Positions 1 through 32,623 of a stretch of 35,364 nt of DNA are shown here, in pieces. A program made the position numbers and the translations under genes. Position 1 is the stretch's first letter; each line of letters opens with the position of its first letter. The stretch is from contig JAAXGO010000075.1 of NCBI GenBank assembly GCA_012267425.1, positions 1-35,364 on the forward strand, in the 5' to 3' direction. Below the pieces are notes generated by a model. It was not told the origin of the DNA and did no database searches. It was given only the letters and a program-made list of their open reading frames with translations. This stretch comes from Rhodothermales bacterium. GTDB lineage: Bacteria; Bacteroidota; Rhodothermia; Rhodothermales; Bin80.

Positions 1-14
1 TGGAACCAATAGGA

Positions 15-941
15 TTGACATCGACCCGGCAGGCAAGCGTATCCTTTGATTTGCTGGGCGACCTGCATGGCGGGCTCGATGTCGCCACTGCTGCCCTCGT
101 TTCCACAACGGGCGGGGATGTTCGGGAATACGGCGGCAAACTGGTTCTGGCTATCCTGCTGATAGCTGCCACTTGGCTGCTGCTCAGGGGCTCGGTACGG
201 CTTCTTGGCATTCTGGCGGAGCGTAGCGCCGCGCGTCGGCTTTTTTACAAGAAGTTGATTCCCATTGGGCGACTGCTGGTCTGGTCCGCCACGATCTGGA
301 TCGTACTCGCCGAGATTTTCCAACTGGATTCCCGCGGCCTCTTGGCGGCGGGGACAGCCCTGGGCGTAGCCATTGGGTTTGCAGCTCAGGATTTGCTCAA
401 AAATGTGTTCGGCGGGATCCTGATCATCTTCGATCAGCCGTTTCAGGTCGGTGATAAGATCAATATAGGGGGCACGTATGGAGAGGTCGTAACGATGGGA
501 CTCCGATCGACGCGGATAATGACTTCCGACAACAATCTTGTTTCCGTGCCGAATGCCCACGTCGTCGACCGCCAAGTCAGCAATGCGAATGCGGGTGCAC
601 TGGAGTGCCAGGTGGTCGTAGATCTCTTCGTGCCAGGATGGACAGACGTCCAGAAGGCTAAGGCCATCGCGTACATGGCGGCCGCCAACTCCAAGTACAT
701 CTACCTCGAAGAGCCCATCGTCGTTAACGTGAAGGACACGTTCAAGGAAACGTTCCTGACGCAGCTCACGGTGAAGGCGTACGTCTTGGATGCACGGTAC
801 GAATTCGCTTTTGCGAGCGACGTGACAGAAACCGCTAAGATCGAGTTTCTGCAGAACGGCTTCTTTGAACAATTGGAAAGGGATTCTCCCATGCTGAAGA
901 AGCTGCCTAAAGGAGTCGCCTCTTCGCCGGATACCGCATGA
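15..941 (+). CDS. MscS-family small-conductance mechanosensitive ion channel (start uncertain, TTG at 15; may extend upstream of window)
   Basis: Translation has N-terminal hydrophobic helices, then a typical MscS pore/beta-domain: 'GTALGVAIGFAAQDLLKNVFGGILIIFDQPFQVGDKINIGGTYGEVVTMGLRSTRIMTSDNNLVSVPNA'. Confidence 0.93.
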   Translation: MTSTRQASVSFDLLGDLHGGLDVATAALVSTTGGDVREYGGKLVLAILLIAATWLLLRGSVRLLGILAERSAARRLFYKKLIPIGRLLVWSATIWIVLAEIFQLDSRGLLAAGTALGVAIGFAAQDLLKNVFGGILIIFDQPFQVGDKINIGGTYGEVVTMGLRSTRIMTSDNNLVSVPNAHVVDRQVSNANAGALECQVVVDLFVPGWTDVQKAKAIAYMAAANSKYIYLEEPIVVNVKDTFKETFLTQLTVKAYVLDARYEFAFASDVTETAKIEFLQNGFFEQLERDSPMLKKLPKGVASSPDTA

Positions 942-3900
942 ACGACGCGGCATCCCAGACCGTCGTGAAGGCTGAGCCACCCGAGTGGACAGATGAGCGT
1001 GCACGCGAATTCGTCCGGTTCACCGTCGATCGTGCCCGTGCGGAATGGCAGCGCTGGTTAGATGCTGTCAGTACGGACATTCTACTTCCCGTACGAGCCG
1101 CCATTAAGACGGCCATCGAGGCCCACGACAATTTGGTGAAGGCGACATTCGAGAGCGATGGCGCAGCTGGCCTTTGGGAAAGTGCAGTCACTTATCGAGA
1201 ATCGGTCGTAGCGGACGTACTTGTGCCCATCCGGGATGTCCTGAAGCGATTCTGCCCGGGCGATTGCATTGGGCAAAGGGCCCTTCAAATCTGTACTACT
1301 CTGCAGGTGGTGGTCGACGAGACACCTGCAACCTGCATTCTGCCTTGCTCAGATGCTCTTTTTGTTTCACGGGAAGCAGACAGCTTCGCCGTGATTCTGA
1401 AGAAGGCATACTCGAGGGCACAAAGGCGCTTAGGTCGGAAACAGGAAGTGCGAACCGTACAGCTCCAGAGCCTTGCGGCGTATCACATAGATGTCCGGCT
1501 GGCATCCGTCCTGCAAATCACACATGAGCGTATTCAGGAACATGTCGCCATTGCCACGGGCAGACTCGAAACGGCACTCAACGACTGGACGTACGCCGTT
1601 TTGGACGCAGAGCACGGACTTTGCCGAGCGGCATTCGTGCAACCGCCGCTCCCGGAGTCGTTTCTCGGCGTAGTGGACGCAACCCCGACTGCTGCCCCCG
1701 ATCTGGGTGACGTGGCGCGGCTAGTGGACTGTGCAGACATGTTGCGGGGTGCGCTTAGCGCAGCGGCAGAGGCACTGGAACGGCCCGGCATGCGTGCAGG
1801 CGAGCTCATACCCAGTGCGTCTGAAGCGTTTGAGGAGGACGTTGCGAGGGCTGGTACCCTGCTCCTGTCGATGACCGACCGAGGCCCGGCGCCGAAAGCG
1901 CAGGCGCTGGAAACGCGGCGGAAGCAGTGGGCTGCCTGGCACATGGAGGTAGTAGATAGGCTGGACTTCTGCAAGGAGCTGTTGTCGTTGCGCAAGACGG
2001 TGCTGCGCACGCACCGAGACATGATGCAGTATGTATTAAGCGAGACGCTTAAACCTCTTTGGCGATCTTTCGGCAACGTGGCCGCCCGCCTGCATGAGGC
2101 TGAGCGCGATGCATACGAGGCGTTCGAGTCGATGGAAGCAAAGGACGCTCCTGTCTGTGCGCTGCAGGAAATAAGGGAACGCATGCTGGGCACCCTGCGA
2201 GAGTCTTTCGGTGCGCTTCCTGAGCTTCTGGCTGCCGACGCGGCACTGGCACACCCGGGCAAGGCTGCACGGGCGACCCTCGCCGCGGTAGTGGAGCTGC
2301 TTCCCGAGAGGCTTTCGTTCCATAACCTTGTTCGCTCGGGCAAAATTGTGCATGCCGAGCCCAGGGTACGGGACATGCGCCATGAGATTCGCAAAGTGGT
2401 CGTGGTGTCTGACGAGCATCTTGCACGTCGTGCGGTGCCGCTTGGAACCGCACTCTCCCAGATATGGGGTGCGTCGAATCAGGTTATTCACATCGTGGAA
2501 TTCAACCTGGATGCGGCACTGGACGAATTCCAAAGCCGAGGAGAGCCGCAAAATGCCCGCGAGCTGGCAACAAGTGGACTTCGCAACGCCGCTCAGAAAG
2601 TACTTGATCTTGCACGCTCGGCGCTGGGTCCCTGGCATGACCTGGAGTCAGGCTTCTTTAAGGAGTTTCAGGTGGAGTGGGAGCGGATCCATCACATTTC
2701 GCGGTCTGAAAGCGAATTCGAGGGCAGGTGGACTTCCCTGTGGTATCGGATTGGGAGCCGGGCCAAGTTATTTGACCGCACCGTCCTCGGGCGGCTGAAC
2801 CTGTTTCAGGAAAGGGGGTGGCTACTCGTTCGCCGCGGTCGGCAGCAGGCGAAGTTGCTCTTGGAGCAGGGCCGGAGTGCCATCCTCCCGATAGAGGTCG
2901 GTGATCGCGATCGTCTGAGCGCCATTGATGCAATTTCGTCAGTGGCCATCGGCAAGCTCCGCGAGGAATTGCCGTTGGTCTACGGAAGATTGTTCGCATT
3001 TAAGCCACTGTTAGAGCCCTATCTCCTCGAAGGTCGCACAGGTGATATCGAACGCATTCGGTACCACCATGAGCGCTGGAAGCATGGCAGTGCAGCGGGA
3101 GCACTTGTACTTCCAATGACGCCGGGCAGTGGGCGCACGAGCCTACTAAATGCTGTACGCTCGGAGTTCGAGCGTACAGCGGATGTTTGCATGGTGACCA
3201 TAGATAAGCGTGTTACCGACATCTCTGACTTCGCCACGCTCATGGCTCGGACGTTCGGTATTGATACAGGCGATGACCCGTCATTGGACCGATTGGAGTT
3301 CGAGCTGCGGAATGCGTCACCCAAGATGTGCCTTGTTGACAATATGGAGCACCTTCTCCTCCGCACGCCCGGAGGGTCTGATCTGATGAAACGGGTGCTG
3401 ATTTTCCTTTCGCGTACTGATTCGACTATTTGCTGGATTGCCACGATCGCAAGTCTGGCCTGGCACTTTCTCGAAACCGTACTCCAAGCGGCGACCACTC
3501 TCGTAACCTGCTATTATCCGAGCGTATTGGAACGCTCCACGCTCGAAGACATCGTACTTGGACGGCACCGTCGAAGTGGACTACCACTCGAGTTTTGCCG
3601 ACCGCGCACCCTGTCGCCTCTTGCAAAGAGGCGCCTTAATCGGGCGAAGTCGCCGGAAGCCGCGCAGAACGTTCTTCGCAAGGTATACTTCGAGCGCCTG
3701 CATCATGCCAGCGGCGAGAACGTGATGCTTGCGCTCTTTTACTGGTTACAATCGGCTCGCTTCAATGAGGCGAAGGACATGCTGACGATAGAACCGGTAC
3801 GCCCGCTGAGGTTCAAGTTCTTCGAGTCGTTCGATCTCGCACGTGCTTTTACGCTCAAGGATCTCCTCCTTCACCATTCGCTGACGCTTCAGGAGCACAG

Positions 3901-4090
3901 CTGTGTTTTTCGGATGACTACTGAAGAGAGCATCTACCAATTGGAGGGGCTACTGAATATGCAACTGATCATCCCGGACGGAGACGGCGCAGGCTCGACG
4001 CGGATTGTGCCTGGAGTTCCCTACCGCTTGCACCCACTCATTGTGCATCCTACATATAAGCTTTTGGCCGACCGACATATCATTCATTGA
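938..4090 (+). CDS. Large (1050 aa) helical protein with C-terminal AAA/STAND-like P-loop ATPase domain; function unknown, overlaps mscS-like gene by ATGA
   Basis: Long ORF; Walker A-like 'LPMTPGSGRTSLLNAV' (Arg instead of Lys), Walker B-like 'KMCLVDNMEHLLL'; 4-nt overlap with upstream channel gene implies translational coupling. Confidence 0.8.
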   Translation: MNDAASQTVVKAEPPEWTDERAREFVRFTVDRARAEWQRWLDAVSTDILLPVRAAIKTAIEAHDNLVKATFESDGAAGLWESAVTYRESVVADVLVPIRDVLKRFCPGDCIGQRALQICTTLQVVVDETPATCILPCSDALFVSREADSFAVILKKAYSRAQRRLGRKQEVRTVQLQSLAAYHIDVRLASVLQITHERIQEHVAIATGRLETALNDWTYAVLDAEHGLCRAAFVQPPLPESFLGVVDATPTAAPDLGDVARLVDCADMLRGALSAAAEALERPGMRAGELIPSASEAFEEDVARAGTLLLSMTDRGPAPKAQALETRRKQWAAWHMEVVDRLDFCKELLSLRKTVLRTHRDMMQYVLSETLKPLWRSFGNVAARLHEAERDAYEAFESMEAKDAPVCALQEIRERMLGTLRESFGALPELLAADAALAHPGKAARATLAAVVELLPERLSFHNLVRSGKIVHAEPRVRDMRHEIRKVVVVSDEHLARRAVPLGTALSQIWGASNQVIHIVEFNLDAALDEFQSRGEPQNARELATSGLRNAAQKVLDLARSALGPWHDLESGFFKEFQVEWERIHHISRSESEFEGRWTSLWYRIGSRAKLFDRTVLGRLNLFQERGWLLVRRGRQQAKLLLEQGRSAILPIEVGDRDRLSAIDAISSVAIGKLREELPLVYGRLFAFKPLLEPYLLEGRTGDIERIRYHHERWKHGSAAGALVLPMTPGSGRTSLLNAVRSEFERTADVCMVTIDKRVTDISDFATLMARTFGIDTGDDPSLDRLEFELRNASPKMCLVDNMEHLLLRTPGGSDLMKRVLIFLSRTDSTICWIATIASLAWHFLETVLQAATTLVTCYYPSVLERSTLEDIVLGRHRRSGLPLEFCRPRTLSPLAKRRLNRAKSPEAAQNVLRKVYFERLHHASGENVMLALFYWLQSARFNEAKDMLTIEPVRPLRFKFFESFDLARAFTLKDLLLHHSLTLQEHSCVFRMTTEESIYQLEGLLNMQLIIPDGDGAGSTRIVPGVPYRLHPLIVHPTYKLLADRHIIH

Positions 4091-4687
4091 GAGTGGCCTT
4101 GTGACTTTACGAGGCGGGGCTTCACAGAGCCGAAGGCGACGCCCGCTGTGTGTCCGCCACACAGTCACCGTAGTAGTTACTTGTCGTCATTCAGTGCGTT
4201 CTTTTCGGCGGCGTTGCATTGTTGCTTGGGTCATACCTCCATCCGGCGGCGCTAAGCCAACGGTGTCGCCGTGTGCTCGGACGGGTCCAACCAGCGGTCG
4301 GAGCTCCTTGTTGATGCCTCGGTCGGCATCGCGGAGAGTGGGCATGTGCACACCCATGCTCGGTTTGGCCGAGGAGACGCTGCCCCCTTTGTTGAATCCC
4401 TCAACTTTCCGCGCACTCTTAGCTGGGCGCTGAATGCTCAAGGTCGCCGAAGCAACTGGACTGCTGACGAGTTTTTTTTGAAACAAGAGTCGCGGGATGC
4501 ATGTCAGTGATTGGCTTTCTGACAGTGCTTTCGTACTGTTCCTCTGCCATGCTGAGGCTGGACGCAACGCGTTGCAGCTTTACCCATGGTCTGTGAGGAT
4601 CCTCCGTAGGCCTGTAGAATCAGACCAGAGGCTACATTGCGTTTCTGTCCGCCACTCGTAAGAAGTGTGCCGCATGGTCAGGTGTCC

Positions 4688-5779
4688 ATGTTGGCTCAGA
4701 TCGTGTTTGGCACGTGCATGGCCATGCACACAATCGGGCCTGCAGTGGCGCAAGACGCTACTGTTCCTGCTCGGTTGGATTTGGCAGAGATCTTTCGCAT
4801 CGGGGATGATGAGAATGATCCGTTGCTGTTTGGGTTTGTTACTGCACTGGATATTAATGCAGCTGGCCAGGTCTATGCCGTAGATGGTAGCAACAACAGC
4901 ATCTATGTCCTATCCGATTCGGGTGAATTAGTCGACGAAATAGGCCGCGAGGGAGCAGGGCCTGGCGAGTTCGAGGACATATCTGGTCTCTATGTTGGGC
5001 CGGGCGATTCAGTCTATGTCCTTGACAGTGATCTGTATCGACTGTCTGTGTTTGAGCCTGACATGCACCGGTTTATGTACAGTGTCCGTATTGAAGCAGA
5101 TGGAATGAGAGACCCTGTGCAGTTACTGGGAGTGGTGGATAACGAGTTTCTCATCGTCTACAGCTCCCCGATGTACCCTGGCCTCGAAGCCACCCATGAC
5201 AGGCGGGCCGTTGTTAATCTCGTGAGCAGGGATGGGATCGTGATCGGGGAGTCTGTGGTTAGCCTGCCAGACAGGGAGTATGTCGCTTCTCAGCGGTACA
5301 TTTTGTTGGTTCCTTTTGGACGGAGATTCGAGTACCGCCTTGGTGCGGACGGCCTGGTGTATTCGGGACTAAGCGACAGGATTGACATTGGGATGACCAC
5401 GGTTGGGGGAGGTACGCAAGGATCAGTCCAATACGATCATCCGGCTGTGCCGGTAACCCGAGAGGATATCGATAACTATGTCAGTGACATGTCTTCAGAT
5501 GCTCGGCGTCTGATTCTGGCATCTGATATCCCTGCCAAGATGCCGGCGTATCAATCGTTTTCAGTTGACGATCGGGGACGTATTTGGATCCAGCTTATCG
5601 GGGAAGGGGGAACGTCGTCTGGAAAGTGGTTGCTCTTGAGTAAGGAAGGAGAAGCCGTAGCCAGGGCAGTTTTGCCTGCAAGTGTCAGTCTGCATGTAGT
5701 CCGGGAAGGCATAGCTTATGGAAACGGCAAGAGCGAATCTGGCGCGCCGTATGTTGTAGCGTATAGAATTGACGAGTAG
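4688..5779 (+). CDS. Exported six-bladed beta-propeller (NHL/BF3164-like) protein
   Basis: Signal-peptide-like N-terminus ('MLAQIVFGTCMAMHTIGPAVAQ') and propeller repeats 'ALDINAAGQVYAVDGSNNSIYVLSDSGELVDEIGREGAGPGEFEDISGLYVGPGDSVYVLDSDLYRLSVFE'. The ORF track starts at a TTG (4637); ATG at 4688 is preferred. Confidence 0.8.
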   Translation: MLAQIVFGTCMAMHTIGPAVAQDATVPARLDLAEIFRIGDDENDPLLFGFVTALDINAAGQVYAVDGSNNSIYVLSDSGELVDEIGREGAGPGEFEDISGLYVGPGDSVYVLDSDLYRLSVFEPDMHRFMYSVRIEADGMRDPVQLLGVVDNEFLIVYSSPMYPGLEATHDRRAVVNLVSRDGIVIGESVVSLPDREYVASQRYILLVPFGRRFEYRLGADGLVYSGLSDRIDIGMTTVGGGTQGSVQYDHPAVPVTREDIDNYVSDMSSDARRLILASDIPAKMPAYQSFSVDDRGRIWIQLIGEGGTSSGKWLLLSKEGEAVARAVLPASVSLHVVREGIAYGNGKSESGAPYVVAYRIDE

Positions 5780-12917: not shown

Positions 12918-13370
12918 ATGGAAAGCCGCACTCACGTACACGAAGAGTATTTCGAGGTTGACAGCGCTACGCTGTTTGCTGCACTCCACACTCCGAGTGC
13001 CATCCGCACGTGGTGGCAGGCCGCAGCGGCCATCGTGGTGCCGGAGGAGGGTGGGCGGTATCTGGTATCATGGGGCGCCGAGGAGGACGATCCCGACTAT
13101 GTCGTGGCGGCTTCGATCTGTGCTTTCGAATCGGGGGTCCGCTTAGTACTTGGCGAGCACTACTATTGGGCGAAAGAGGGGCCGCTGCCGTTCGAAATGA
13201 AAACCAAAATCGAGTTTGTGGTACGTCCACTTGATAGTGGCGCTACGCTCCGAGTCACTCAAGGCGGCTTCCCTGCTGGCCCCGAAGCGGACGAATACTT
13301 CAATGCCTGTGTCAAGGGCTGGCGCGACACGTTCGCGGGAATCCGGTCCTATCTGGCCGCTTGCCCCTGA
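12918..13370 (+). CDS. SRPBCC (AHSA1/START-like) domain protein
   Basis: 'THVHEEYFEVDSATLFAALHTPSAIRTWWQ...GGRYLVSWG...FVVRPLDSGATLRVTQGGFP...YFNACVKGWRDTFAGIRSYL'. Confidence 0.85.
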   Translation: MESRTHVHEEYFEVDSATLFAALHTPSAIRTWWQAAAAIVVPEEGGRYLVSWGAEEDDPDYVVAASICAFESGVRLVLGEHYYWAKEGPLPFEMKTKIEFVVRPLDSGATLRVTQGGFPAGPEADEYFNACVKGWRDTFAGIRSYLAACP

Positions 13371-14542
13371 AATCTTTTTAGCACTTTGAGGCGCGGAGCG
13401 CGACGTTTGGGGCTGTCGAGGCTGAATGCTCGCGCGTCCTGAAGGTCACTCTTGATGAAGGCTTCCGTGTGGGCTACGGCTTCGAGAACCTCCTGAGTTG
13501 CGTTGCTGAAAGTTGCCCAGACAACGGATTCATTCTGTGGGTCGTATTCCCAAAAACCAATCAGCCTGCCCCGGTCTATGATGGCATGGTAAGGAAGGTC
13601 AGTGAGACCACTTGCGCGTGAGACAAGAAGCGGATGATCGCGGTCGGCGGCTGCGACGAGCGAGGCGGCATTGCGGCGAAGAAGTGCGAGCGCGTCGAGA
13701 CTGCTGATGAGGCTGACGGCCGGGGCGGTCGGCAACGAAAAATTTCGGAATGCTTCGAGCTGGCTGGGAAGAATGAGACGGGTGTTTTGTAATCGCACCG
13801 CCACAAGGCCGAGCGGCTCGAGTGCGGCCCGGGCAGCCTTCGCTCCGAGTCCGGAAAACCACCGAAACTCAGCGACAGTGGCTGGTGCCGTCCATTCAAA
13901 ATACCGCCGAGCAAGCTCAACACGTGCCTCTTCAAGTGTAAGTGTGTACGCACTGAGCGGATTTGAATTCCAGCGAATGTACCGATAGCGTTGCCTGTCA
14001 AGCCGGCCTGTCGCAGAGATGCGGCGGATTTCTCCGCGAACCTGAAGATGGCCGAGTGCGACGGGCAACGTAGTCGTCAGCCCCTTTTTCTTGCCTTCGT
14101 CGCCCAGATTGCGCACAGCGTCGCCCAAGGCACGGCGCAGCTCGGATGGGAGCATGGGGCCACTAGCAAGAACGTCCAGGATCGCGTGATCCAACCGGCT
14201 GATTTCGTCGTCCAGTACGCCGAGTCGGCGTGCCGTCCTGCGCTCGGCTTCACTGAAAGGCTCGCCGACCCTCAGTGCCAGTGCGTGGTCACGGGCTCCG
14301 ACAACGTACATGCACCCTCTGGCACTCGGAAGCTCGAGGATAGCCGTCGCCTTGACGGCCTTGTCAGCTTCCGCTCTTGTGACACCGCCGCGGCTATGGA
14401 GCGTAACGTAGGGACAGACACTTCCAACCGATCGTGCCCAGCCGGTAGCGTTGAGGATGTCGGCTGCGGGGAATCCTGCCAGACGTCCGTCGAGTCCCTG
14501 CAAGTAGGACCACCACGCACGCAGACGGTCGTCGATTTTCAT
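13349..14542 (-). CDS. Winged-helix DNA-binding protein of the AlkZ/YcaQ-like (HTH_42) superfamily
   Basis: 'LDHAILDVLASGPMLPSELRRALGDAVRNLGDEGKKKGLTTTLPVALGHLQVRGEIRRISATGRLDRQRYRYIRW' and 'ELARRYFEWTAPATVAEFRWFSGLGAKAARAALEPLGLV'. Start at 'MKIDDR' (14542) preferred to 14617. Confidence 0.8.
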   Translation of the reverse strand: MKIDDRLRAWWSYLQGLDGRLAGFPAADILNATGWARSVGSVCPYVTLHSRGGVTRAEADKAVKATAILELPSARGCMYVVGARDHALALRVGEPFSEAERRTARRLGVLDDEISRLDHAILDVLASGPMLPSELRRALGDAVRNLGDEGKKKGLTTTLPVALGHLQVRGEIRRISATGRLDRQRYRYIRWNSNPLSAYTLTLEEARVELARRYFEWTAPATVAEFRWFSGLGAKAARAALEPLGLVAVRLQNTRLILPSQLEAFRNFSLPTAPAVSLISSLDALALLRRNAASLVAAADRDHPLLVSRASGLTDLPYHAIIDRGRLIGFWEYDPQNESVVWATFSNATQEVLEAVAHTEAFIKSDLQDARAFSLDSPKRRAPRLKVLKRFQGQAAR

Positions 14543-14678
14543 GCGATAACAGCGTATACGTTGAAGACGCGTAACTCGTCCGGCGTGCCGAACGTAGGGA
14601 TATAGGCAACGCATCAATGGTTGCGTATGTGCCGTTCGCTAGGTAACATTGGCCCGCAACGCTGACCACACAAGATCC

Positions 14679-18836: not shown

Positions 18837-19268
18837 ATGCCTAACATCAGGTTCGACTTCACCGTGCGGGCTCAGCCCGAGCTGGTATTCGACGCCCTCA
18901 GCACACCCCGGGGCCTGTCGGCTTGGTGGACGCTCGAAGCGGCAGGCGAGGCCAAAGCGGGCAACGAAATGTTCTTGGGCTTTGGCCCCGGCTACGACTG
19001 GCGTGCCGAAGTGTCGGAATACGCACCCGGAGAAACGATCGAGTGGATCGTTACGGATGCGGACGAGGATTGGAACGGAACACGCCTGCGTATCCACCTG
19101 GAGCGCCAGGGCAGCGAAACGCTCGTACAATTCGAGCACTCGGGATGGGCGAAGAACTCAGCGCACTTTCGCACGTCGGCGTTCTGCTGGGCGATGTATT
19201 TCCGCCTGCTCAGACGGTATGTAGAGGCGGGCGAGGTTGTGCCCTATGCGGAGCGTCAATTCGCCTGA
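18837..19268 (+). CDS. SRPBCC (AHSA1-like) domain protein
   Basis: 'MPNIRFDFTVRAQPELVFDALSTPRGLSAWWTLEAAGEAKAGNEMFLGFGPGYDWRAEVSEYAPGETIEWIV'; ATG 18837 selected from the longer ORF. Confidence 0.85.
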   Translation: MPNIRFDFTVRAQPELVFDALSTPRGLSAWWTLEAAGEAKAGNEMFLGFGPGYDWRAEVSEYAPGETIEWIVTDADEDWNGTRLRIHLERQGSETLVQFEHSGWAKNSAHFRTSAFCWAMYFRLLRRYVEAGEVVPYAERQFA

Positions 19269-19951
19269 ATCGGGGGAGCGCTGTTGTAGTATGACGTCAG
19301 CGGTCGCCCAAGGCGGCGCTGCGGTGGCCGTGGTCTGGCTTTATGGAGGCCCGTCCTGTTGACGTGTCCTACGTAGCGTCCGAGTACGCGTACTTCCTCA
19401 AAGACGTCCGGCTCGATGTGGATGTCTTCGTACTCCGGGTTGGCTGGTTCCAGACGCAAGCCGTTTTGGTCCATGAAAATGCGCTTGAGCGACGTTTCGC
19501 CGTCATACAGCACGGCACCGATGCCTCCGTTGGGGATGTCGTCGTCAATGAGTAGTACGTAATCCCCGTCCTTTATATCTGCGCCTCGCATCGACTGTCC
19601 GGCAACGCGCAAGGCGAAAATGCGATGCAAGTTCGGAAACAGCATCTCGAGTGTAATAGAACCGAGATTAGCCTCGACAGCTTCCTGTAGCTGCCCGGCA
19701 GCAATCACGCCACGGATCGGAATGCCACGCGACCTCGGCGCCTTTACCTTAAGATGATACCCGTCGGCATCGTACCTGAGATAGTTCTTTTTCCGCAGTG
19801 CCTGCAGATTCTGCGTCACGGAATTCGGCGACCGGTAGCCGAATTCAGCGACGATCTCGCGGTACGTTGGCCAAATGTGGTGTTCCTTGACGTATTGCCT
19901 CAGGAATTCCAGGAATGCAAGCTGTTTGGTGGTGAGTGAGCGGCGGCCCAT
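19256..19951 (-). CDS. lexA: LexA-type SOS repressor (S24 peptidase)
   Basis: wHTH 'PTYREIVAEFGYRSPNSVTQNLQALRKKNYL', Ala-Gly self-cleavage site 'GVIAAGQL', catalytic Ser 'VAGQSMRGADIKDGDYVLI', Lys 'GETSLKRIF'; strong SD 'aaggagg' upstream. Confidence 0.95.
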   Translation of the reverse strand: MGRRSLTTKQLAFLEFLRQYVKEHHIWPTYREIVAEFGYRSPNSVTQNLQALRKKNYLRYDADGYHLKVKAPRSRGIPIRGVIAAGQLQEAVEANLGSITLEMLFPNLHRIFALRVAGQSMRGADIKDGDYVLLIDDDIPNGGIGAVLYDGETSLKRIFMDQNGLRLEPANPEYEDIHIEPDVFEEVRVLGRYVGHVNRTGLHKARPRPPQRRLGRPLTSYYNSAPPIQAN

Positions 19952-22460: not shown

Positions 22461-25400
22461 TCACGACGCGTTCGGTACTTTGCGCGGACTGCGCCTTCCC
22501 GTTCGAGCGGAGTCTCTGCGCACTGCCTTGGTCTGAGGCTGCATGAGAAGCGCTCGTTTCAGTTCGTGCGATTTATATTTGTCTGAGAACATCCGGATTT
22601 CGCCGCCGACAAGCGCGGCAACCGGCACGCCCGAGCGGTACACGATCCGGTTCGATGCAATGGCCGGGATGCGTCTGCCCGGACTCAGGATGCCCGCCAG
22701 GTTCAGTGGGTCCGTCCCGCTGATGCCAGATGGTTCTGCTGCGATCGAGGGGTCTTTCCGAACACGCCTGAGTAGCCCGACGGCGTCCGGCAGCGCGAAT
22801 TGCTCTCCCGGAAAACCAGCCACGAATCGTCCGCCTCGCATCTCTCCACGGGCTTCCAGGCGCCAGAATACGCGAACCAGATCACGCCAGCTTGGCATGC
22901 TGTGCTCCCGTGTCAAAAGCCGCCGGAATACCACACCGTACCGCAGCAGGAGAGTCCGAGCCATATTTTCGGCATGCTCTTCGGCCTCGGGCTCCGAATG
23001 GTCTACGATTGACCATCTTCCGGCCGCTTCCATTCCGTACGGGACCTGTCGCCTGTGTCTCGGCCTGCTGTTTTTTCGGCGGCGCTCATCCGATGGTGTA
23101 AGCAAAACGCGCAGACCAGCGAATCCGTCCGCGGTTACGAATCCTCGCCCGACCAGCTCGCCCAAAGCAGCTTCTACCTGCGTGGGAAGGAGTTCGCTAA
23201 CATGCACGATAGTGGGCATGAAGGAAGCACCGCGCACTTCCAGGACGTCGAGGACCCGTCTCGCAGCACTGGAAAGCGATCCTTCGGTCGGTGAGCGCCG
23301 AAAAGTCACTTCATCTTCTGCAAAGAAGAGAGCGATAGGCGTCGACCGGATTGGCGCCGGTGACTCACCGTTGGTCTGCGGCGTCGCGCGCCCCCAAACG
23401 ACACGTCCGGTGTAGCACAGGGTATCCAACATTGCCGGATCGTAGTCGCCGATGCGTAGGGGTAGAACGTCCGTTTCCCACGCGGAGGCCTGCACAGCAT
23501 ACCCACCCATCTGCTGGATGACTCCGGAAAGCGCAGTAAGACCCCGTCCGCGAAAACCGTTTGCGGCTTTTTGCCAGGCAAACAGGAATCGCGTAAAGTC
23601 TGCCGCAGACACCGGTTCGACGGCTGCGCGCAGTTTGCGTAGCGTCAGCCGATGCATGCGTGCCAGAAGCCGCCTGTTGCACCAGGTGCCGTTGGCCATG
23701 CGAAGTACTTCGCCGCCAGCTTCAAGCCGAAGCAATGCGTCACGTGCCAGTGCCTCGTCAATTCCCAAAAAGCGCGCGACGTCTTCCTGTGCCATTGGGC
23801 CACCAGTGTCAAGCACACCTCGCACAAAGCCGGTCGCGGCATCCTCCCGAGAGACGGATTCAAACATCGGGTCGAGCGCAGGATCACACGTCAGGTCCCA
23901 GAGTGCCAGTCCTTCGTGAAGTCGCTCGGTAGGCAGCCAGAAAATCAAGCCGGAATCTTTAACGGCACCGCGCGTTGCGCGACCGGTTGCCACAAGCGTC
24001 CGAAACATTGCTTCCCATCCTGCACACTCCTTCACGCATCCTGTTGATAACATCAGATCGTGCAGCTGGTCGGGATCGTCCGGCTTTGGCCGCACCTCTT
24101 CGATGACATGGTCGATGGCGCGTCTATCGAGGATGTTGTCTGACGTAGGCTCGAAGGCCCGCCGTCTATACGCGGCCTGCGAGCGACGCTCCTCGAGAGG
24201 CGCATCGTCCAGGAAGGCATACGGGCTTGCCGTGAGGATTTCGTGGGCGAGGGGAGACGGTTCAGTCGCGTCACATTCTACGCATCGAATGGAACCTATC
24301 CGGATGCGTCCCAGGACTGCGTTGAGCTGCGGCTGATCCATTGCCAGCGTCAGGCAGTCGGCGAGAGTCTGCTGCACGAGTGGGTGCTCCGGTACGTCCC
24401 TTTCTCCGACGATGTTTTCAAGACATGCTGCAGCGTCCGGAAAGACAGCCACGAGAATGTCTTCGGCCTGCATCCGCTGGATGGGAGGAGGAACCTTGCG
24501 TCCGCCCCTTTGCCGAGGCACGGCGAGCGATATGTTGAGATTCCAGCGCCATCTTGTCTGGAACATGGGCGCATCCAGGACGGCCTGCGTCAAAGTGGCA
24601 CGCAGTGAATCCGGCGACAGGTAGTCGAATACGTCGGCAAGCGGAAACGAATGTTGCGGGCCAAGAGACAACAGGACTGCATTTTCGGTAGCGGCGGCCT
24701 GGAGCTCAAAATTGAATGTTCGGCAGAACTTCTTGCGCAGAGCGAGTCCCCAGGCGCGGTTGACCCGTGCACCGAAGGGAGCATGTACGATAAGTTGCAT
24801 CCCGCCCGACGCATCGAAAAAGCGTTCGGCAACGATCGTGCGCTGCGTTGGAATTACGCCGAGTAGGTGGCGCGAAGCGCACAGGTATTCCGCCAGCTGT
24901 ACTGCGGCTGCAGGCGAAAAACGACCAAGCCAGGCACGCGCCGTCTCACGGCTTTCCAAGTGCGCTTCTGCATCCTCTCTCAGCCGTGACACGGCTGCCG
25001 ACAGTTCATCGCTGCGCGACGGAGCCTCGCCGAACCAGAACGGGATCGTCGGCGGTGCACCCTGCGCATCCCTCACGCGTACGGTCCCCGATTCAATGCG
25101 CTGAATCTGCCACGCGGCGTTTCCGAGCTGGAAGATGTCTCCAGAGATGCTCTCGACCGCAAAGTCTTCGTCCACGGTGCCGACGAATGTCTGCTGCGGC
25201 TCGACAATTACGCGGTAATCGGCCGAGTCCGGGATAGCTCCGCCGGAGGTAAGCGCTGTGAGGCGGGCACCCTTGCGGCCTTTGATCCGGCCGTTGACGG
25301 CATCGTGGTAGAGCAGTGCGCCTCGCCGCCCGCGATCGGTGACGAAACCGCGTGACAGCATGCCAACGAGGTCGTCCAGGATGCTTCTCGTCAGGTTGCG

Positions 25401-26708
25401 ATACGGGTATGCGCGCCGACATAGCAAGGTCAATCCGTCAAGCGACCATTCCTCAGCCGATGCCTCAGCTACGATCTGCTGTGAGAGGACATCGAGCGGC
25501 ATGTTGAGCGGGCGCACGTGCTCCAGTTCACCGCGGTCCAGGGCGTCGAGGAGGGCGCAACATTCCAGGAGATCGTCACGCGTAATCGGAAACAATCGAC
25601 CCTTCGAAATACCGTCCACCTGATGGCCTGCTCTACCGATTCGCTGGACGAACGTGGCGATCGAACGCGGTGACCCGATCTGGCACACGAGATCGACTGA
25701 TCCGATGTCTATGCCGAGTTCGAGGGAGGCCGTTGCAACCAATATCTTGAGGCTTCCATCTCTGAGAGCCTTTTCTGCGGCCTGTCTCTTACTCTGTGCA
25801 AGACTTCCGTGGTGCGCGGCCACCGACTCGTCACCCAGTCTTTCGGCGAGGTGTCGAGCTAGGCGCTCGGCCATACGGCGCGCGTTGACGAATACGAGGG
25901 TGGTTCCGTGATCAGCGGCAAGAAGAGCGATGCGGTCATAGATTTCGTCCCATACTTCGTGAGGCATCACGGCATCGAGGGGAGACGACGGCAGTTCCAA
26001 TGCAAGGTCCATTTTCCGCCGGTACCCGAGGTCCACGATGGTGCACGGATCGGGTCCGGCAAGAAACCGCGCCACGCATTCAACCGGCCGCTGCGTCGCC
26101 GACAGCCCGATGCGTTGCAGGCGGCGGCCGGTCACGTGATCGAGCCGTTCGAGACTCAGTGCCAGATGGGAACCACGCCGCGATGGGAGTACGGCGTGGA
26201 TTTCGTCGACGATGACGCACCGTGCCGTACGCAGCATATTGCGACTGCGTTCGGCCGTAAGCAGCAGGTACAACGACTCTGGAGTAGTGACGAGAATGTG
26301 CGGAGGCTTCCGCGTCATGGCCGCCCGCCGGGACGAGGGGGTGTCACCTGTCCGTATGGCTGTCGTGACGGGTGGCGGAGTGAGACCGTCGTTAAGCGCC
26401 CCTTGCCGAATTCCCGCTAGTGGCACAGCCAGGTTGAGATGGATGTCGGTGCTGAGTGCCTTTAGTGGCGACACGTACACGACGACCGTCTCGTCGGGCA
26501 GTACTCCTTCGGCTAAGCCGCGCGAGTACAGTTCGTCGAGTGCCACCAAAAATGCTGCCAGCGTCTTGCCGGAGCCAGTCGGGGCGGCAATGAGGGTGTG
26601 CGCGCCGCTGCGGATGGCTGGCCATCCCCGTTTCTGTGCTTCGGTAGGTGCACTGAATGCGGATTCGAACCAGCGCGCGACGACGGGATGGAAAGCTTTT
26701 GATTCCAT
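22461..26708 (-). CDS. lhr: Lhr-like large ATP-dependent DNA helicase (core plus long C-terminal region)
   Basis: Q-motif/Walker A 'PTEAQKRGWPAIRSGAHTLIAAPTGSGKTLAAFL', DEIH 'CVIVDEIHAVLPSRRGSHLALSLERLD', 'QIGSPRSIATFVQRIGRAGHQ', long Lhr-type C-terminal domains. Confidence 0.93.
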   Translation of the reverse strand: MESKAFHPVVARWFESAFSAPTEAQKRGWPAIRSGAHTLIAAPTGSGKTLAAFLVALDELYSRGLAEGVLPDETVVVYVSPLKALSTDIHLNLAVPLAGIRQGALNDGLTPPPVTTAIRTGDTPSSRRAAMTRKPPHILVTTPESLYLLLTAERSRNMLRTARCVIVDEIHAVLPSRRGSHLALSLERLDHVTGRRLQRIGLSATQRPVECVARFLAGPDPCTIVDLGYRRKMDLALELPSSPLDAVMPHEVWDEIYDRIALLAADHGTTLVFVNARRMAERLARHLAERLGDESVAAHHGSLAQSKRQAAEKALRDGSLKILVATASLELGIDIGSVDLVCQIGSPRSIATFVQRIGRAGHQVDGISKGRLFPITRDDLLECCALLDALDRGELEHVRPLNMPLDVLSQQIVAEASAEEWSLDGLTLLCRRAYPYRNLTRSILDDLVGMLSRGFVTDRGRRGALLYHDAVNGRIKGRKGARLTALTSGGAIPDSADYRVIVEPQQTFVGTVDEDFAVESISGDIFQLGNAAWQIQRIESGTVRVRDAQGAPPTIPFWFGEAPSRSDELSAAVSRLREDAEAHLESRETARAWLGRFSPAAAVQLAEYLCASRHLLGVIPTQRTIVAERFFDASGGMQLIVHAPFGARVNRAWGLALRKKFCRTFNFELQAAATENAVLLSLGPQHSFPLADVFDYLSPDSLRATLTQAVLDAPMFQTRWRWNLNISLAVPRQRGGRKVPPPIQRMQAEDILVAVFPDAAACLENIVGERDVPEHPLVQQTLADCLTLAMDQPQLNAVLGRIRIGSIRCVECDATEPSPLAHEILTASPYAFLDDAPLEERRSQAAYRRRAFEPTSDNILDRRAIDHVIEEVRPKPDDPDQLHDLMLSTGCVKECAGWEAMFRTLVATGRATRGAVKDSGLIFWLPTERLHEGLALWDLTCDPALDPMFESVSREDAATGFVRGVLDTGGPMAQEDVARFLGIDEALARDALLRLEAGGEVLRMANGTWCNRRLLARMHRLTLRKLRAAVEPVSAADFTRFLFAWQKAANGFRGRGLTALSGVIQQMGGYAVQASAWETDVLPLRIGDYDPAMLDTLCYTGRVVWGRATPQTNGESPAPIRSTPIALFFAEDEVTFRRSPTEGSLSSAARRVLDVLEVRGASFMPTIVHVSELLPTQVEAALGELVGRGFVTADGFAGLRVLLTPSDERRRKNSRPRHRRQVPYGMEAAGRWSIVDHSEPEAEEHAENMARTLLLRYGVVFRRLLTREHSMPSWRDLVRVFWRLEARGEMRGGRFVAGFPGEQFALPDAVGLLRRVRKDPSIAAEPSGISGTDPLNLAGILSPGRRIPAIASNRIVYRSGVPVAALVGGEIRMFSDKYKSHELKRALLMQPQTKAVRRDSARTGRRSPRKVPNAS

Positions 26709-26719
26709 GGTGCTGCCGC

Positions 26720-27805
26720 CTATTCGAACAATCCAGGCTGCGCGGCAAACCGTCTGAATGCTTTGGTGCTCAGCGGCGGCCAGGGTTCGTTGAAACCGGC
26801 CTCTGTGCAGGCCGTCCGGAACAGATGCGCGATGGTATCGGCCCAGATGCCCGTGCCACGCATGCGCCGACCGAATCGACTGTCTGTCAGGCGGCCACCG
26901 CGCATTTCACGGAGGCGTTCGAGGACTTTTCGGGCGTGGTAGGGAAGTTCGGTTTCCAGCCAGTGGATGAAGAGAGGTTTAACAGCTCCAGGCAGGCGCA
27001 GTAAGACGTAGCCCGCTTTACGGGCACCGCGATCGGCGGCGGCTCTGATGATGTTCGGCATCTCGTGGTCCGTGAGACCGGGGATGACCGGTGCCACCAT
27101 GACTCCGACGGGTATTCCAGCAGAGGCAAGTGTCTCGACTGTACGGAGCCTGTCGGCGGGTCGCGACGTTCTGGGCTCCATGACGGAAACCAACTCGGGA
27201 TTCAGCGTAGTGATCGACACCATGACCCGCACGAGGTTGAAGCCAGCCAATTCCGTAAGCAGATCCACGTCGCGACGGACGAGTCCGTTCTTGGTGATGA
27301 TGACGACGGGGTTGCGGTGGCGCAGAAACACCTCCAAGCATCCCCTGGACAGCCGCAACCTGCGTTCTACGGGTTGATACGGGTCGGTATTTCCGGACAG
27401 TGCGACAGGCTGTGGCTCCCATGACGGTGCGGAAAGTGCTTTGGACAGCAGTTCAGGTGCAGTGCGCTTGACCAGAATCTTCGTCTCGAAGTCCAATCCC
27501 GCCGACCAGCCGAGGTATTCATGGCTGGGTCGGGCATAGCAGTAGATACATCCATGCTCGCACCCCCGGTACGCATTGAGGCTGTAGGTGAAGCCCACGT
27601 CCGGGCTTTCATTGCGGGCGAGAATACTCTTGGAGGTATCAATGTAAAAGCGTGTCGGCACATTGCGCAATTCATGGGGCTCCAGCTCGGCGGGATCAGG
27701 CTCGAGCACAAACGGGTCGAACCGCGTCGTCGGATTGAAGCTGGCGGCACGTCCCCGTAGCCTCGGCATCGTGCGAGACTGCTCGATCGCAGGATCGCGT
27801 GTCAT
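26720..27805 (-). CDS. PA0069-family radical SAM protein (spore photoproduct lyase-like)
   Basis: CxxxCxxC 'YRGCEHGCIYCYARPSHEYLGWSAGLDFETKILVK'; 'ALSGNTDPYQPVERRLRLSRGCLEV'; 11 nt upstream of lhr on the same strand. Confidence 0.93.
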   Translation of the reverse strand: MTRDPAIEQSRTMPRLRGRAASFNPTTRFDPFVLEPDPAELEPHELRNVPTRFYIDTSKSILARNESPDVGFTYSLNAYRGCEHGCIYCYARPSHEYLGWSAGLDFETKILVKRTAPELLSKALSAPSWEPQPVALSGNTDPYQPVERRLRLSRGCLEVFLRHRNPVVIITKNGLVRRDVDLLTELAGFNLVRVMVSITTLNPELVSVMEPRTSRPADRLRTVETLASAGIPVGVMVAPVIPGLTDHEMPNIIRAAADRGARKAGYVLLRLPGAVKPLFIHWLETELPYHARKVLERLREMRGGRLTDSRFGRRMRGTGIWADTIAHLFRTACTEAGFNEPWPPLSTKAFRRFAAQPGLFE

Positions 27806-27918: not shown

Positions 27919-28851
27919 GTGATCACGTTTCACATTGAGGGCCGTTTCATGGAAACCGTAACACTGATGCGCACTATTCAGGCCGAGCCCCAGGCTGTAT
28001 TTGCAGCATTCACTACGCCGGACGGCCTCGCGAGGTGGTTCGCGCCTACTGCAGAGCTTGAAGTGATTGCGGAGTGCGAGTTGGTTCCTGGAGGAACCTG
28101 GCGCGTGGAAATGCAGCATCAAGATGGTGATGTTTTCGCCGTAGGCGGAGCGATCCGTTCGTCAGATCCACCACGTTTTTTGGAATGGTCTTGGCGATGG
28201 GAAGGCGAGGCGCTCGCATCTCTGGGCGACACTCGCGTCGTCGTTGCAATAGACCGTGAGGCCGGAGGATCCAGGCTCCGTGTTTCGCACGACGGATTCC
28301 CGAACGAGGAATTCGCCGGCACACACCGCGACGGCTGGGAGAGCTCGCTTTCCCGTTTGGCGGATCTGTTCGCTCCCAAGTCGCCGCATCGTATCTCGAC
28401 GCTCTTGGCGCTTCACAGGCAACTGTTTACGCAAACGATGGACGGTGTTTCGGATGTGGATCTCTTGCGGCAGCCGAACGACATGACCCCAAGTATGCTG
28501 TGGATAGCATGCCAAATCGCTCGGGGACGCTACGTTCTTGCAACGAAACTTGGTCTGGACGTGACGTTTCCATTTCCGGCCTTTGCAAAAACGGCTCCTA
28601 ACTATGACGATTATCCTAGCTGGCATGAAGTTCTAGCTTACTTTTCGGAGGTGACACACACCGTTTACGGTGTCCTTCACCAGATGGACACCGCAGCACT
28701 CCGTAGGCCGCACGGCATGGATCTTCCGATAAACGACCCGACGATGGCCGGACTGTTGGACCACGCAGTCGACGAGGAAGCCTACCTGCTCGGTCAACTG
28801 TCGTTTATGCGAATGCTGGTGGGTTACGAAGCACCGAACGGGACTACATGA
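27919..28851 (+). CDS. SRPBCC-DinB fusion protein
   Basis: N-terminal SRPBCC 'TIQAEPQAVFAAFTTPDGLARWFAPTAELEV...'; C-terminal DinB-like four-helix region 'LLALHRQLFTQTMDGVSDVDLLRQPNDMTPSMLWIACQIARGRYVLATKLG...HAVDEEAYLLGQLSFMRMLVG'. Confidence 0.75.
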   Translation: MITFHIEGRFMETVTLMRTIQAEPQAVFAAFTTPDGLARWFAPTAELEVIAECELVPGGTWRVEMQHQDGDVFAVGGAIRSSDPPRFLEWSWRWEGEALASLGDTRVVVAIDREAGGSRLRVSHDGFPNEEFAGTHRDGWESSLSRLADLFAPKSPHRISTLLALHRQLFTQTMDGVSDVDLLRQPNDMTPSMLWIACQIARGRYVLATKLGLDVTFPFPAFAKTAPNYDDYPSWHEVLAYFSEVTHTVYGVLHQMDTAALRRPHGMDLPINDPTMAGLLDHAVDEEAYLLGQLSFMRMLVGYEAPNGTT

Positions 28852-30062
28852 CGAGGAAACAAGTTACTGTCAGTCACGAATCCGTAGTCCGCCTTTGGCT
28901 CTGGCTGCAGGGCTTTTCCGAACCGCGTGGCACGACATCTCTCGCGCCTGATACGCTCGACGACCACCTCAAGAGAACGGGCGCACTTCAGCTCGACAGC
29001 GTCAACGTAGCCGAACGTGCCCATTACCTCACCCTGTGGAGCCGCTTCGGACCATTTGACAAAGAGCGGCTCAGCGACTGGGTCTATCGTGATCGTAGGG
29101 CTTACGAATACTGGGGCCATGAAGCATCCATTCTCCCCATCTCTCACCTAAAGCACGGACTGCGGCGGATGCGGCTTTTTCCGCCGGACAGGTGGCGCAA
29201 TTCTTCGTGGTGGGCGCGCTACGACGTGTCGACAGCATCGAAGCGTCGCGTGCTGCGGCGGCTGAGGCAGGAGGGACCGATGGAGAGTGCGGACTTCAAA
29301 AAGCGGCCGGAGGACGAGAAGAGGGCGAAGGCATGGGGAATGGCCTATCCAAAGGAAGACAAGAGGGCCCTACAGCTGCTATGGCATGCAGGTAAAGTTG
29401 CCGTAAGCCGTCGGCGCCATTTTCGGCGAGTGTACGATCTGGCCGAGCGGGTGTATCCCAAGGTTCAACCGGTAAGTAGAACTGCCTATGAGGACGGCTG
29501 GCTCCTAGCGGGTCTCTCAGGCTGCGGCGTCGCAAGCGAAAAGCACCTGACGAACTACTGGACAGCGCCGAATCCGAAGGCGGCCGATCGGAGGAGGATC
29601 ATCGGGCGAAACCTAACGGCACGCAGGATCGCGGAGGTTCGCGTAGCGGGTTTTGAAGATCCGTACTATGTGCTCCCGGAGCATCTGGAAATACTTCAGA
29701 CAGCCCCTGCAGCGTGGGGTACCACCTTGGTCTGTCCGTTTGATTCACTGCTCTGGCAGCGGCGTCGAGTGGAGGATCTGTTAGGTTTCCGGTATCGGAT
29801 CGAGATCTACGTTCCTCCGCGGAAGCGGACCTATGGCTACTACGTACTGCCGATTCTCCACGACGGCCGACTGGTCGGTCGTCTGGATCCGAAGATGCAC
29901 AGGGCAGAAGGCGTACTTGAAATCAAGAACTACTTTCTGGAGGAAGGGTTTGAGCCTGACGCGACCTTCAGGCGTGGATTCAGAGATTCGCTGGAGAGCT
30001 TGGCTTCGTTCTTGGGTGCCTCCGAGTTGAAGGTGTGCGCGCCCTCAAGCCATGTCGTCTGA
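28848..30062 (+). CDS. YcaQ-type (AlkX) winged-helix DNA glycosylase-like protein
   Basis: 'TGALQLDSVNVAERAHYLTLWSRFGPFDKERLSDWVYRDRRAYEYWGHEASILPI' contains a QxD motif; 'LVCPFDSLLWQRRRVEDLLGFRYRIEIYVPPRKRTYGYYVLPILHDGRLVGRLDPKMHR' is a hallmark of the YcaQ/HTH_42 family. Confidence 0.9.
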   Translation: MTRKQVTVSHESVVRLWLWLQGFSEPRGTTSLAPDTLDDHLKRTGALQLDSVNVAERAHYLTLWSRFGPFDKERLSDWVYRDRRAYEYWGHEASILPISHLKHGLRRMRLFPPDRWRNSSWWARYDVSTASKRRVLRRLRQEGPMESADFKKRPEDEKRAKAWGMAYPKEDKRALQLLWHAGKVAVSRRRHFRRVYDLAERVYPKVQPVSRTAYEDGWLLAGLSGCGVASEKHLTNYWTAPNPKAADRRRIIGRNLTARRIAEVRVAGFEDPYYVLPEHLEILQTAPAAWGTTLVCPFDSLLWQRRRVEDLLGFRYRIEIYVPPRKRTYGYYVLPILHDGRLVGRLDPKMHRAEGVLEIKNYFLEEGFEPDATFRRGFRDSLESLASFLGASELKVCAPSSHVV

Positions 30063-31189: not shown

Positions 31190-32476
31190 ATGACCGAGTC
31201 CCCCAATCCCCAAGCCGTCCGCTTGGATTACGGAAAGGATGGCCTGCACCTCGATCTGGAGGGATTGAACGCAACCGTCCTGCGGCCACAATACGTTAAA
31301 GGGGTGCCAGACGAAAAAGCCGCGTTCGTGAAGGCACTCCGGCATCCGATCGGTGCCGAGCCGCTGCGCGAAATCATTGCCGCGGACGAGACGGTTGCCA
31401 TCGCCATTCCTGACATCACTCGCGCCCTACCGAGTGATCGGCTTCTTCCGTGGCTGCTGGAGGAACTCGGGCATGTACAGTCGGAGAACGTGACCATCGT
31501 AGTCGGCACTGGCACGCACCGGGCGAACACGCGCGAAGAACTAGCCATGATGGTCGGGCAGGCAATAGTCGATCGCTACCGCATCATAAATCACGACGCA
31601 CGTGATTCCTCGACCATGCGCAGGGTCGGCAGATCCCAGTTCGGCTACGAAGTCCATATTAATTGCGACTATGTAGAGGCCGATCGGCGCATCCTGATGG
31701 GATTCATCGAGCCGCACTTCATGGCGGGGTTCTCGGGAGGCTACAAAGCCGTCTTTCCGGGGCTGGCTGACTTGGAAGCAATTCTAGAGTATCACGGGTA
31801 CGACAACATTGCCCATCCACTGAGTACGTGGGGTATTCTCGAGGGCAATCCGACACAAGCTCACGTGCGGGCCGGGGGATCTCTTGTTTCAGTGGATTTC
31901 CTCGTCAACGTGACGCTCAACAGTGAGCGTGCTATCACCTCTTTTTTTTGCGGCGATGTCATTGACGCCCACATGGCGGGATGCCGGTTCTCGAAGGAAA
32001 CGGCGATGGCAGGAGTTAACAGACGGTTCCCGGTCGTAGTGACGACCAACAGCGGATATCCGCTCGATCTCAATCTGTACCAAGCCGTTAAGGGAATGAC
32101 GGCTGCCCACGCAGTTACGAAGCCGGGAGGCTTGGTCATCGCCGCAGCCCAGTGCGCCAACGGCATTCCGGATCACGGAGCATTCAGGCGGCAACTCTGC
32201 CGATACGCCTCTCCTCGGGATGCACTTCGCGCGATCAGAACGCCGGGATTTGCCGAAATCGACCAGTGGCAGACCCAGAAGCTGAATCAGATTCTCCTTG
32301 AATGCAGGATCCAGCTGCTGAGCGAAATTAACCCTAACACCGTTCGCAGTGTCCACCTGGATCCGATTACTGACTTGCGCCGGGCGATAGATGACGAGCT
32401 GAGTCGTCTGGGCGACAAAGATGCTCCGGTGGCGGTGCTTCCAGAGGGACCATTGACGATACCGTACATCCGATAA
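31190..32476 (+). CDS. LarA-family (lactate racemase-like, DUF2088) protein
   Basis: 'IAIPDITRALPSDRLLPWLLEEL', 'VTIVVGTGTHRANTREEL', 'RILMGFIEPHFMAGFSGGYKAVFPGLA' carry the conserved LarA His/Lys regions. Confidence 0.88.
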   Translation: MTESPNPQAVRLDYGKDGLHLDLEGLNATVLRPQYVKGVPDEKAAFVKALRHPIGAEPLREIIAADETVAIAIPDITRALPSDRLLPWLLEELGHVQSENVTIVVGTGTHRANTREELAMMVGQAIVDRYRIINHDARDSSTMRRVGRSQFGYEVHINCDYVEADRRILMGFIEPHFMAGFSGGYKAVFPGLADLEAILEYHGYDNIAHPLSTWGILEGNPTQAHVRAGGSLVSVDFLVNVTLNSERAITSFFCGDVIDAHMAGCRFSKETAMAGVNRRFPVVVTTNSGYPLDLNLYQAVKGMTAAHAVTKPGGLVIAAAQCANGIPDHGAFRRQLCRYASPRDALRAIRTPGFAEIDQWQTQKLNQILLECRIQLLSEINPNTVRSVHLDPITDLRRAIDDELSRLGDKDAPVAVLPEGPLTIPYIR

Positions 32477-32623
32477 GAGCCGCGCGCTATCGGTGCCGCG
32501 TGGTTTTGTACATTTTCCCTCTAGAGCAGACGCACCGTGGTGCGAATCTGCCGTGCAGCACGTGACGATCCACTCTGCAGTTCTCGTCTGCGGTTTCAAT
32601 TGATGCCAGCGAGAAAACGCCCT

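Follow-up and report, generated by a model that had tools for sequence, protein, structure and literature searches.

An MscS-type channel gene lies next to a gene encoding a large cytosolic protein at 98 of the 107 non-redundant loci that we collected from Rhodothermales, Balneolia, other Bacteroidota and Gemmatimonadota. Eight of the remaining loci are at a contig edge and one is unconfirmed, leaving the pair in place at 98 of 99 testable loci, and because it recurs to this extent the pairing is not a matter of chance. The two-gene system proposed in a first-pass annotation of a single stretch of DNA is thus conserved beyond close relatives, in two phyla and in both gene orders, and homologues of the large protein sit by MscS genes rather than apart from them. 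We favour, with moderate confidence, the view that the pair constitutes a dedicated ion/osmotic homeostasis unit, in which the large protein is the cytosolic partner of the channel and sets its opening or assembly.

The stretch in question (35,364 nucleotides from a Rhodothermales bacterium, hereafter the window) is one entire contig of a MAG (completeness 89.85%, contamination 7.04%), and the channel gene within it is therefore truncated at the 5' end (Table 1). Both open reading frames of the first-pass annotation are present, and the ATGA that they share is consistent with translational coupling of channel and partner. The channel start assigned to position 15 has to be given up: the TTG at this position is unlikely to be a real start and probably reflects the cut end of the contig, since homologous channels run to about 340-670 aa, and the true N-terminus is lost beyond the edge. 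The product of the truncated frame can be assigned by sequence to the MscS family, with putative gating by tension. It matches Pfam MS_channel_2nd at 2.7e-20 (72.7 bits, cut-off 20.2) and MscS structures in the PDB, for example 7dlu at 1.2e-19, and these matches identify both the MscS beta-domain and the pore helix. At every locus of the order having upstream sequence, the channel adjoining the homologous large protein is 53-71% identical to that of the window.

Table 1. Coordinates of features identified in the window
Feature	Position	Strand	Basis or remark
MscS-family channel	3..941	+	Frame open at contig edge, 5' end missing; Pfam MS_channel_2nd and PDB sequence matches
MscS beta-domain, protein residues 130-196	390..590	+	Pfam MS_channel_2nd envelope
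ATGA shared by channel stop and partner start	938..941	+	Read directly from sequence
Cytosolic partner protein, 1050 aa	938..4090	+	Helical region followed by AAA/STAND-like C-terminus
Long helical region, residues 19-650	992..2887	+	AlphaFold model; without Pfam match, no known family
AAA/STAND-like nucleotide-binding fold, residues 679-890	2972..3607	+	AAA_22/AAA_16 in homologues; Foldseek
Degenerate Walker A PGSGRTS, residues 729-735	3122..3142	+	Lysine replaced by arginine
Walker B-like CLVDNMEHL, residues 798-806	3329..3355	+	Sequence motif
Family signature RHRRSG, residues 876-881	3563..3580	+	R876, H877 and S880 invariant in the window's clade
C-terminal helical/winged-helix-like part, residues 892-1050	3611..4087	+	AlphaFold secondary structure; Orc1/Cdc6-type match over about 400 columns
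DNA-repair-rich group	13349-14617, 19256-19951, 22461-26708, 26720-27805, 28848-30062

Two arrangements of the pair are observed, the channel gene coming first in one clade and the partner gene first in the other, with adjacency retained in both. A channel HMM detected an adjacent MscS gene on the same strand at 95 of the 107 loci, either upstream (69 loci, 68 of them strong) or downstream (26 loci, 20 strong), and a further three loci (L167, L168 and L170) possess a small neighbour in which Pfam recognises the MscS beta-domain; L169 is the lone testable locus where an MscS neighbour is unconfirmed. A 4-base overlap like that of the window occurs at 53 of the 69 channel-first loci. Many channels of this clade also carry a lipobox-like signal at the N-terminus (35 of the 59 with a visible 5' region, as against 13 of 379 control ORFs, by one rough rule applied alike to both), a signal that is rare among Balneolia-type channels and that would lie in the missing part of the window channel. 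A model of the full-length channel of one relative has a pLDDT of 68, with low confidence outside the core, and supports no claim.

A search of genome contigs that used the window protein as a single sequence gave no match, whereas an alignment-based scan did find homologues; the named scan, which was of the latter kind and employed one short motif, returned 55 loci from Rhodothermales, Gemmatimonadota and one representative of the Balneolales. Profile searches found matches in 73 of 396 Bacteroidota genomes, including much of the Balneolia, and in 86 of 298 Gemmatimonadota genomes, where about 38 matches are strong and the remainder are short, generic AAA matches. The family has been sampled in depth in these two phyla. 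Four loci in MAGs labelled as Gammaproteobacteria (L107, L109, L111 and L112) resemble those of Gemmatimonadota, and the labels may be wrong.

Clustering of all neighbouring ORFs revealed no third operon partner common to more than one lineage. Several clusters with high counts that lie opposite both genes at overlapping positions look like antisense shadows and were discarded, and the downstream gene for a sigma-70 factor (279 aa) and the gene for a peptidase M49 (544 aa) are lineage-restricted neighbours. In the window itself an NHL/6-bladed beta-propeller protein (4637-5779) is encoded directly downstream of the pair; the only neighbour common across lineages is MscS. Elsewhere the contig is rich in DNA-repair genes, encoding two AlkZ-like DNA glycosylases, a LexA-like repressor, an Lhr-type helicase and a radical SAM protein, and a lactate racemase LarA-like gene (31190-32476) adjoins a gene for an MFS_2 sugar-type transporter (32537-34018).

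Within the order, the large protein and one particular channel subtype are found together. This subtype, defined by 53-71% identity and E values of about 1e-87 or better, is encoded in 34 of the 36 genomes that contain the large protein and in none of the 63 that lack it, which have distant MscS genes only (best 1.5e-30). In the two exceptions (G078 and G098) the large gene is cut at a contig end. The association has a Fisher p of 1.6e-24, uncorrected for relatedness. The two protein trees are likewise congruent, with a Mantel r of 0.945 that was equalled in 0 of 2000 permutations and to which shared species history contributes; the channel-first and partner-first clades are each monophyletic in both trees. 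Presence in 36 of 99 genomes is patchy, so the pair must be dispensable.

The architecture of the large protein agrees with the first-pass annotation, which had described a helical N-terminus followed by Walker A-like and Walker B-like motifs in a second ORF of 1050 aa. Both motifs were found, and in an AlphaFold model built from 52 sequences the N-terminal region is almost all helix. Mean pLDDT of this model is 88 overall and mostly >90 in the AAA region, and no transmembrane segments are predicted. The C-terminus is modelled as an AAA+/STAND-like fold. Foldseek matched it to Orc1/Cdc6, RuvB, RFC and one plant NLR with a probability of 1.00 and E values down to 1.6e-7; the best matches are mostly Orc/Cdc6, and the single NLR, together with a region after the NTPase core that is modelled as helical or winged-helix-like, makes the STAND subclass a tentative assignment. 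No family exceeded the cut-off in Pfam for the window protein (AAA_22 reached 0.0075, below the cut-off) and NCBIfam gave nothing meaningful. Among 28 homologues, AAA_22 is present in 18 (best 2.8e-6) and AAA_16 in 12 (best 2.6e-6), so that the profile search proposed for the C-terminal region has, together with the model, borne out an AAA-type fold. Residues P679, Y682, L685 and F686, directly ahead of this fold, are invariant. Some candidate similarities were rejected. The sequence SGLPL (residues 880-884) could be read as GLPL-like, but an Orc/Cdc6-type helix end fits the position equally well; a PDB search with the single sequence gave chance matches only; and designed helical bundles, which with Cdc6 made up the bulk of the matches in a PDB profile search, were dismissed as composition matches.

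It is in catalytic competence that the protein departs from what had been proposed. None of the 71 proteins of the channel-first clade, to which the window belongs, retains the Walker A lysine, which is replaced by R (27), V (18), I (13) or other residues. By comparison, it is kept in 16 of 20 Balneolia-type relatives and in all 10 transporter-fused relatives. The channel-first clade does keep the T/S that follows the missing lysine and an acidic residue at the end of Walker B, position 801 being D or E in 71 of 71 proteins within a variable context. The large protein of the window is thus probably not an ATP hydrolase, and nucleotide binding may persist. Of the "giant P-loop ATPase" in the first-pass annotation, the AAA/STAND-like fold therefore stands and the ATPase activity is not supported; with the lysine lost, "pseudo-ATPase" is the more suitable term for this protein.

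A clue to function is provided by distant homologues in other Bacteroidota, in which the module is fused C-terminal to integral membrane transporters. Ten long homologues (about 1465-1746 aa) include four with Na_H_Exchanger and four with AA_permease, three of the latter also matching SLC12, and the similarity spans both the helical region and the AAA head (for example L155, profile positions 70-1015, 3e-76). TrkH adjoins all five sampled loci of the 1500-aa type (L154-L158), and TrkA and TrkH lie beside L159. In two TrkH-bearing loci the transporter-AAA gene is preceded by a 414-aa gene without a Pfam family (L155, 11551-12792; L157, 2727-3968). Fusions of 1686-1746 aa between AA_permease/SLC12 and AAA regions (L169 and L170) are also encoded in two Rhodothermales genomes (G016 and G021) that have the window-type pair, so both forms coexist. 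At the other extreme, some Balneolaceae possess a head-only version of ~380-400 aa, without the helical region and still next to a channel, which implies that the scaffold is not universally needed.

That the module is fused to Na+/H+ exchangers or SLC12-type transporters, with TrkH and MscS as neighbours, is a reason for favouring an ion/osmotic role, and of the two possibilities raised in the first-pass annotation, stress sensing and a conflict system, it supports the first, as stress sensing or ion homeostasis. In such a unit the MscS-type protein would be the solute-release channel, and the large protein would comprise a long helical scaffold and an AAA/STAND-like head whose catalytic lysine has been lost in the window's clade. 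Most probably the scaffold docks onto the channel's cytosolic cage, or onto its membrane neighbours, and the docked partner would then govern the ease of opening of the channel or its assembly, according to an internal state such as ionic strength, crowding or bound nucleotide. The module with intact Walker A that is attached to Na+/H+ exchangers and SLC12-type transporters, near TrkH and another MscS, would serve as a shared tail for the control of ion flux. Pairing, co-occurrence, fold, lysine loss and fusions are what we observe; from them we infer that the partner touches the channel and directly regulates its gating, and what the signal might be. The nearby ion transporters could mean mere co-regulation. 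A broader proposal, to which we give belief and doubt in equal measure, is that bacteria coordinate cell volume and ion content through an undescribed AAA/STAND-like control module, catalytically dead in certain clades and probably active elsewhere, which is attached to ion-flux proteins unrelated to one another (MscS, Na+/H+ exchanger and SLC12-type cotransporter, with TrkH nearby) either as an adjacent gene or as a fusion.

The most serious alternative, which we nevertheless regard as unlikely, is that the large protein helps the channel, or ion transporters generally, to assemble or fold and does not regulate gating. AAA-type folds are often chaperones, and adjacency and fusion are equally compatible with such a role, but most MscS genes in the same genomes, and all of those in the 63 genomes without the large protein, have no such partner; permanent fusion to a transporter would be unusual for a chaperone, and the catalytic lysine is gone in the window's clade. 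Less probable again is a transcription regulator whose winged-helix-like head binds DNA and controls osmotic genes, its operon with the channel being incidental. The top fold matches are indeed to the DNA-binding initiators Orc1/Cdc6, and to RuvB, yet a position C-terminal to integral membrane transporters is difficult to reconcile with this function, and adjacency to channels in both orders exceeds the needs of co-regulation.

A conflict system, in which a STAND-like sensor opens the channel upon infection and thereby kills or arrests the cell, is improbable to a still greater degree. It would accommodate the AAA/STAND-like fold, with its plant NLR match, and the patchy distribution in the order. 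Against it, PADLOC gave no match for either window protein, and its matches on homologues (mad8 at 0.00019, CARF_HEPN at 0.00012 and ZorA at 0.0076) were too weak to accept. The pair is chromosomal, with no relatives found among plasmids, phages and viral contigs, and it is vertically coherent, the trees of its two proteins being congruent. Loss of the Walker A lysine, the transporter fusions with TrkH nearby and neighbours such as the sigma-70 and M49 peptidase genes also speak against this branch of the earlier proposal. It is very improbable that chromosomal inertia alone holds two unrelated genes together: the vertical coherence of the channel-first loci would fit, but adjacency survives the inversion of gene order between clades while the wider neighbours differ by lineage.

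If the pair is indeed an ion/osmotic homeostasis unit, the prevailing view that MscS channels respond to membrane tension alone would need to be qualified, as a conserved partner that is lost and gained with one channel subtype over two phyla would put one class of MscS under protein control. The occurrence of the module on Na+/H+ exchangers and SLC12-type transporters suggests, in a form open to testing, that solute release is linked to ion uptake, and the lysine-bearing and lysine-less versions offer a natural contrast. A literature search with limited coverage of subscription journals found no described family or paper on the pair, and its novelty is provisional to that extent.

The channel shares the pore helix and beta-domain of the MscS family (E. 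coli MscS, YnaI and MscK), from which it differs in that a large cytosolic partner invariably accompanies it and, in the channel-first clade, in often having a lipobox-like signal and a long extra N-terminal region. The partner resembles STAND, AAA_16 and AAA_22 NTPases and Orc1/Cdc6-type AAA+ proteins in the fold of its C-terminal ~400 residues. It is distinguished from them by the absence of the Walker A lysine in the window's clade, by a helical N-terminus of ~650 residues that belongs to no known family, and by the association of its family with channels and transporters. Dedicated cytosolic partners with nucleotide-binding folds are familiar from other ion channels and transporters, as in the TrkA/KtrA and Kef regulatory subunits, which are of the Rossmann/RCK or flavodoxin type. 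We propose an analogous role for the large protein, although it is AAA/STAND-like and has no detectable sequence relation to these subunits. The msc-gt-tpsp operon of Thermoproteus tenax similarly combines a mechanosensitive channel with partners in the osmotic response, but these are enzymes of trehalose synthesis and are not AAA-like (PMC3634074).
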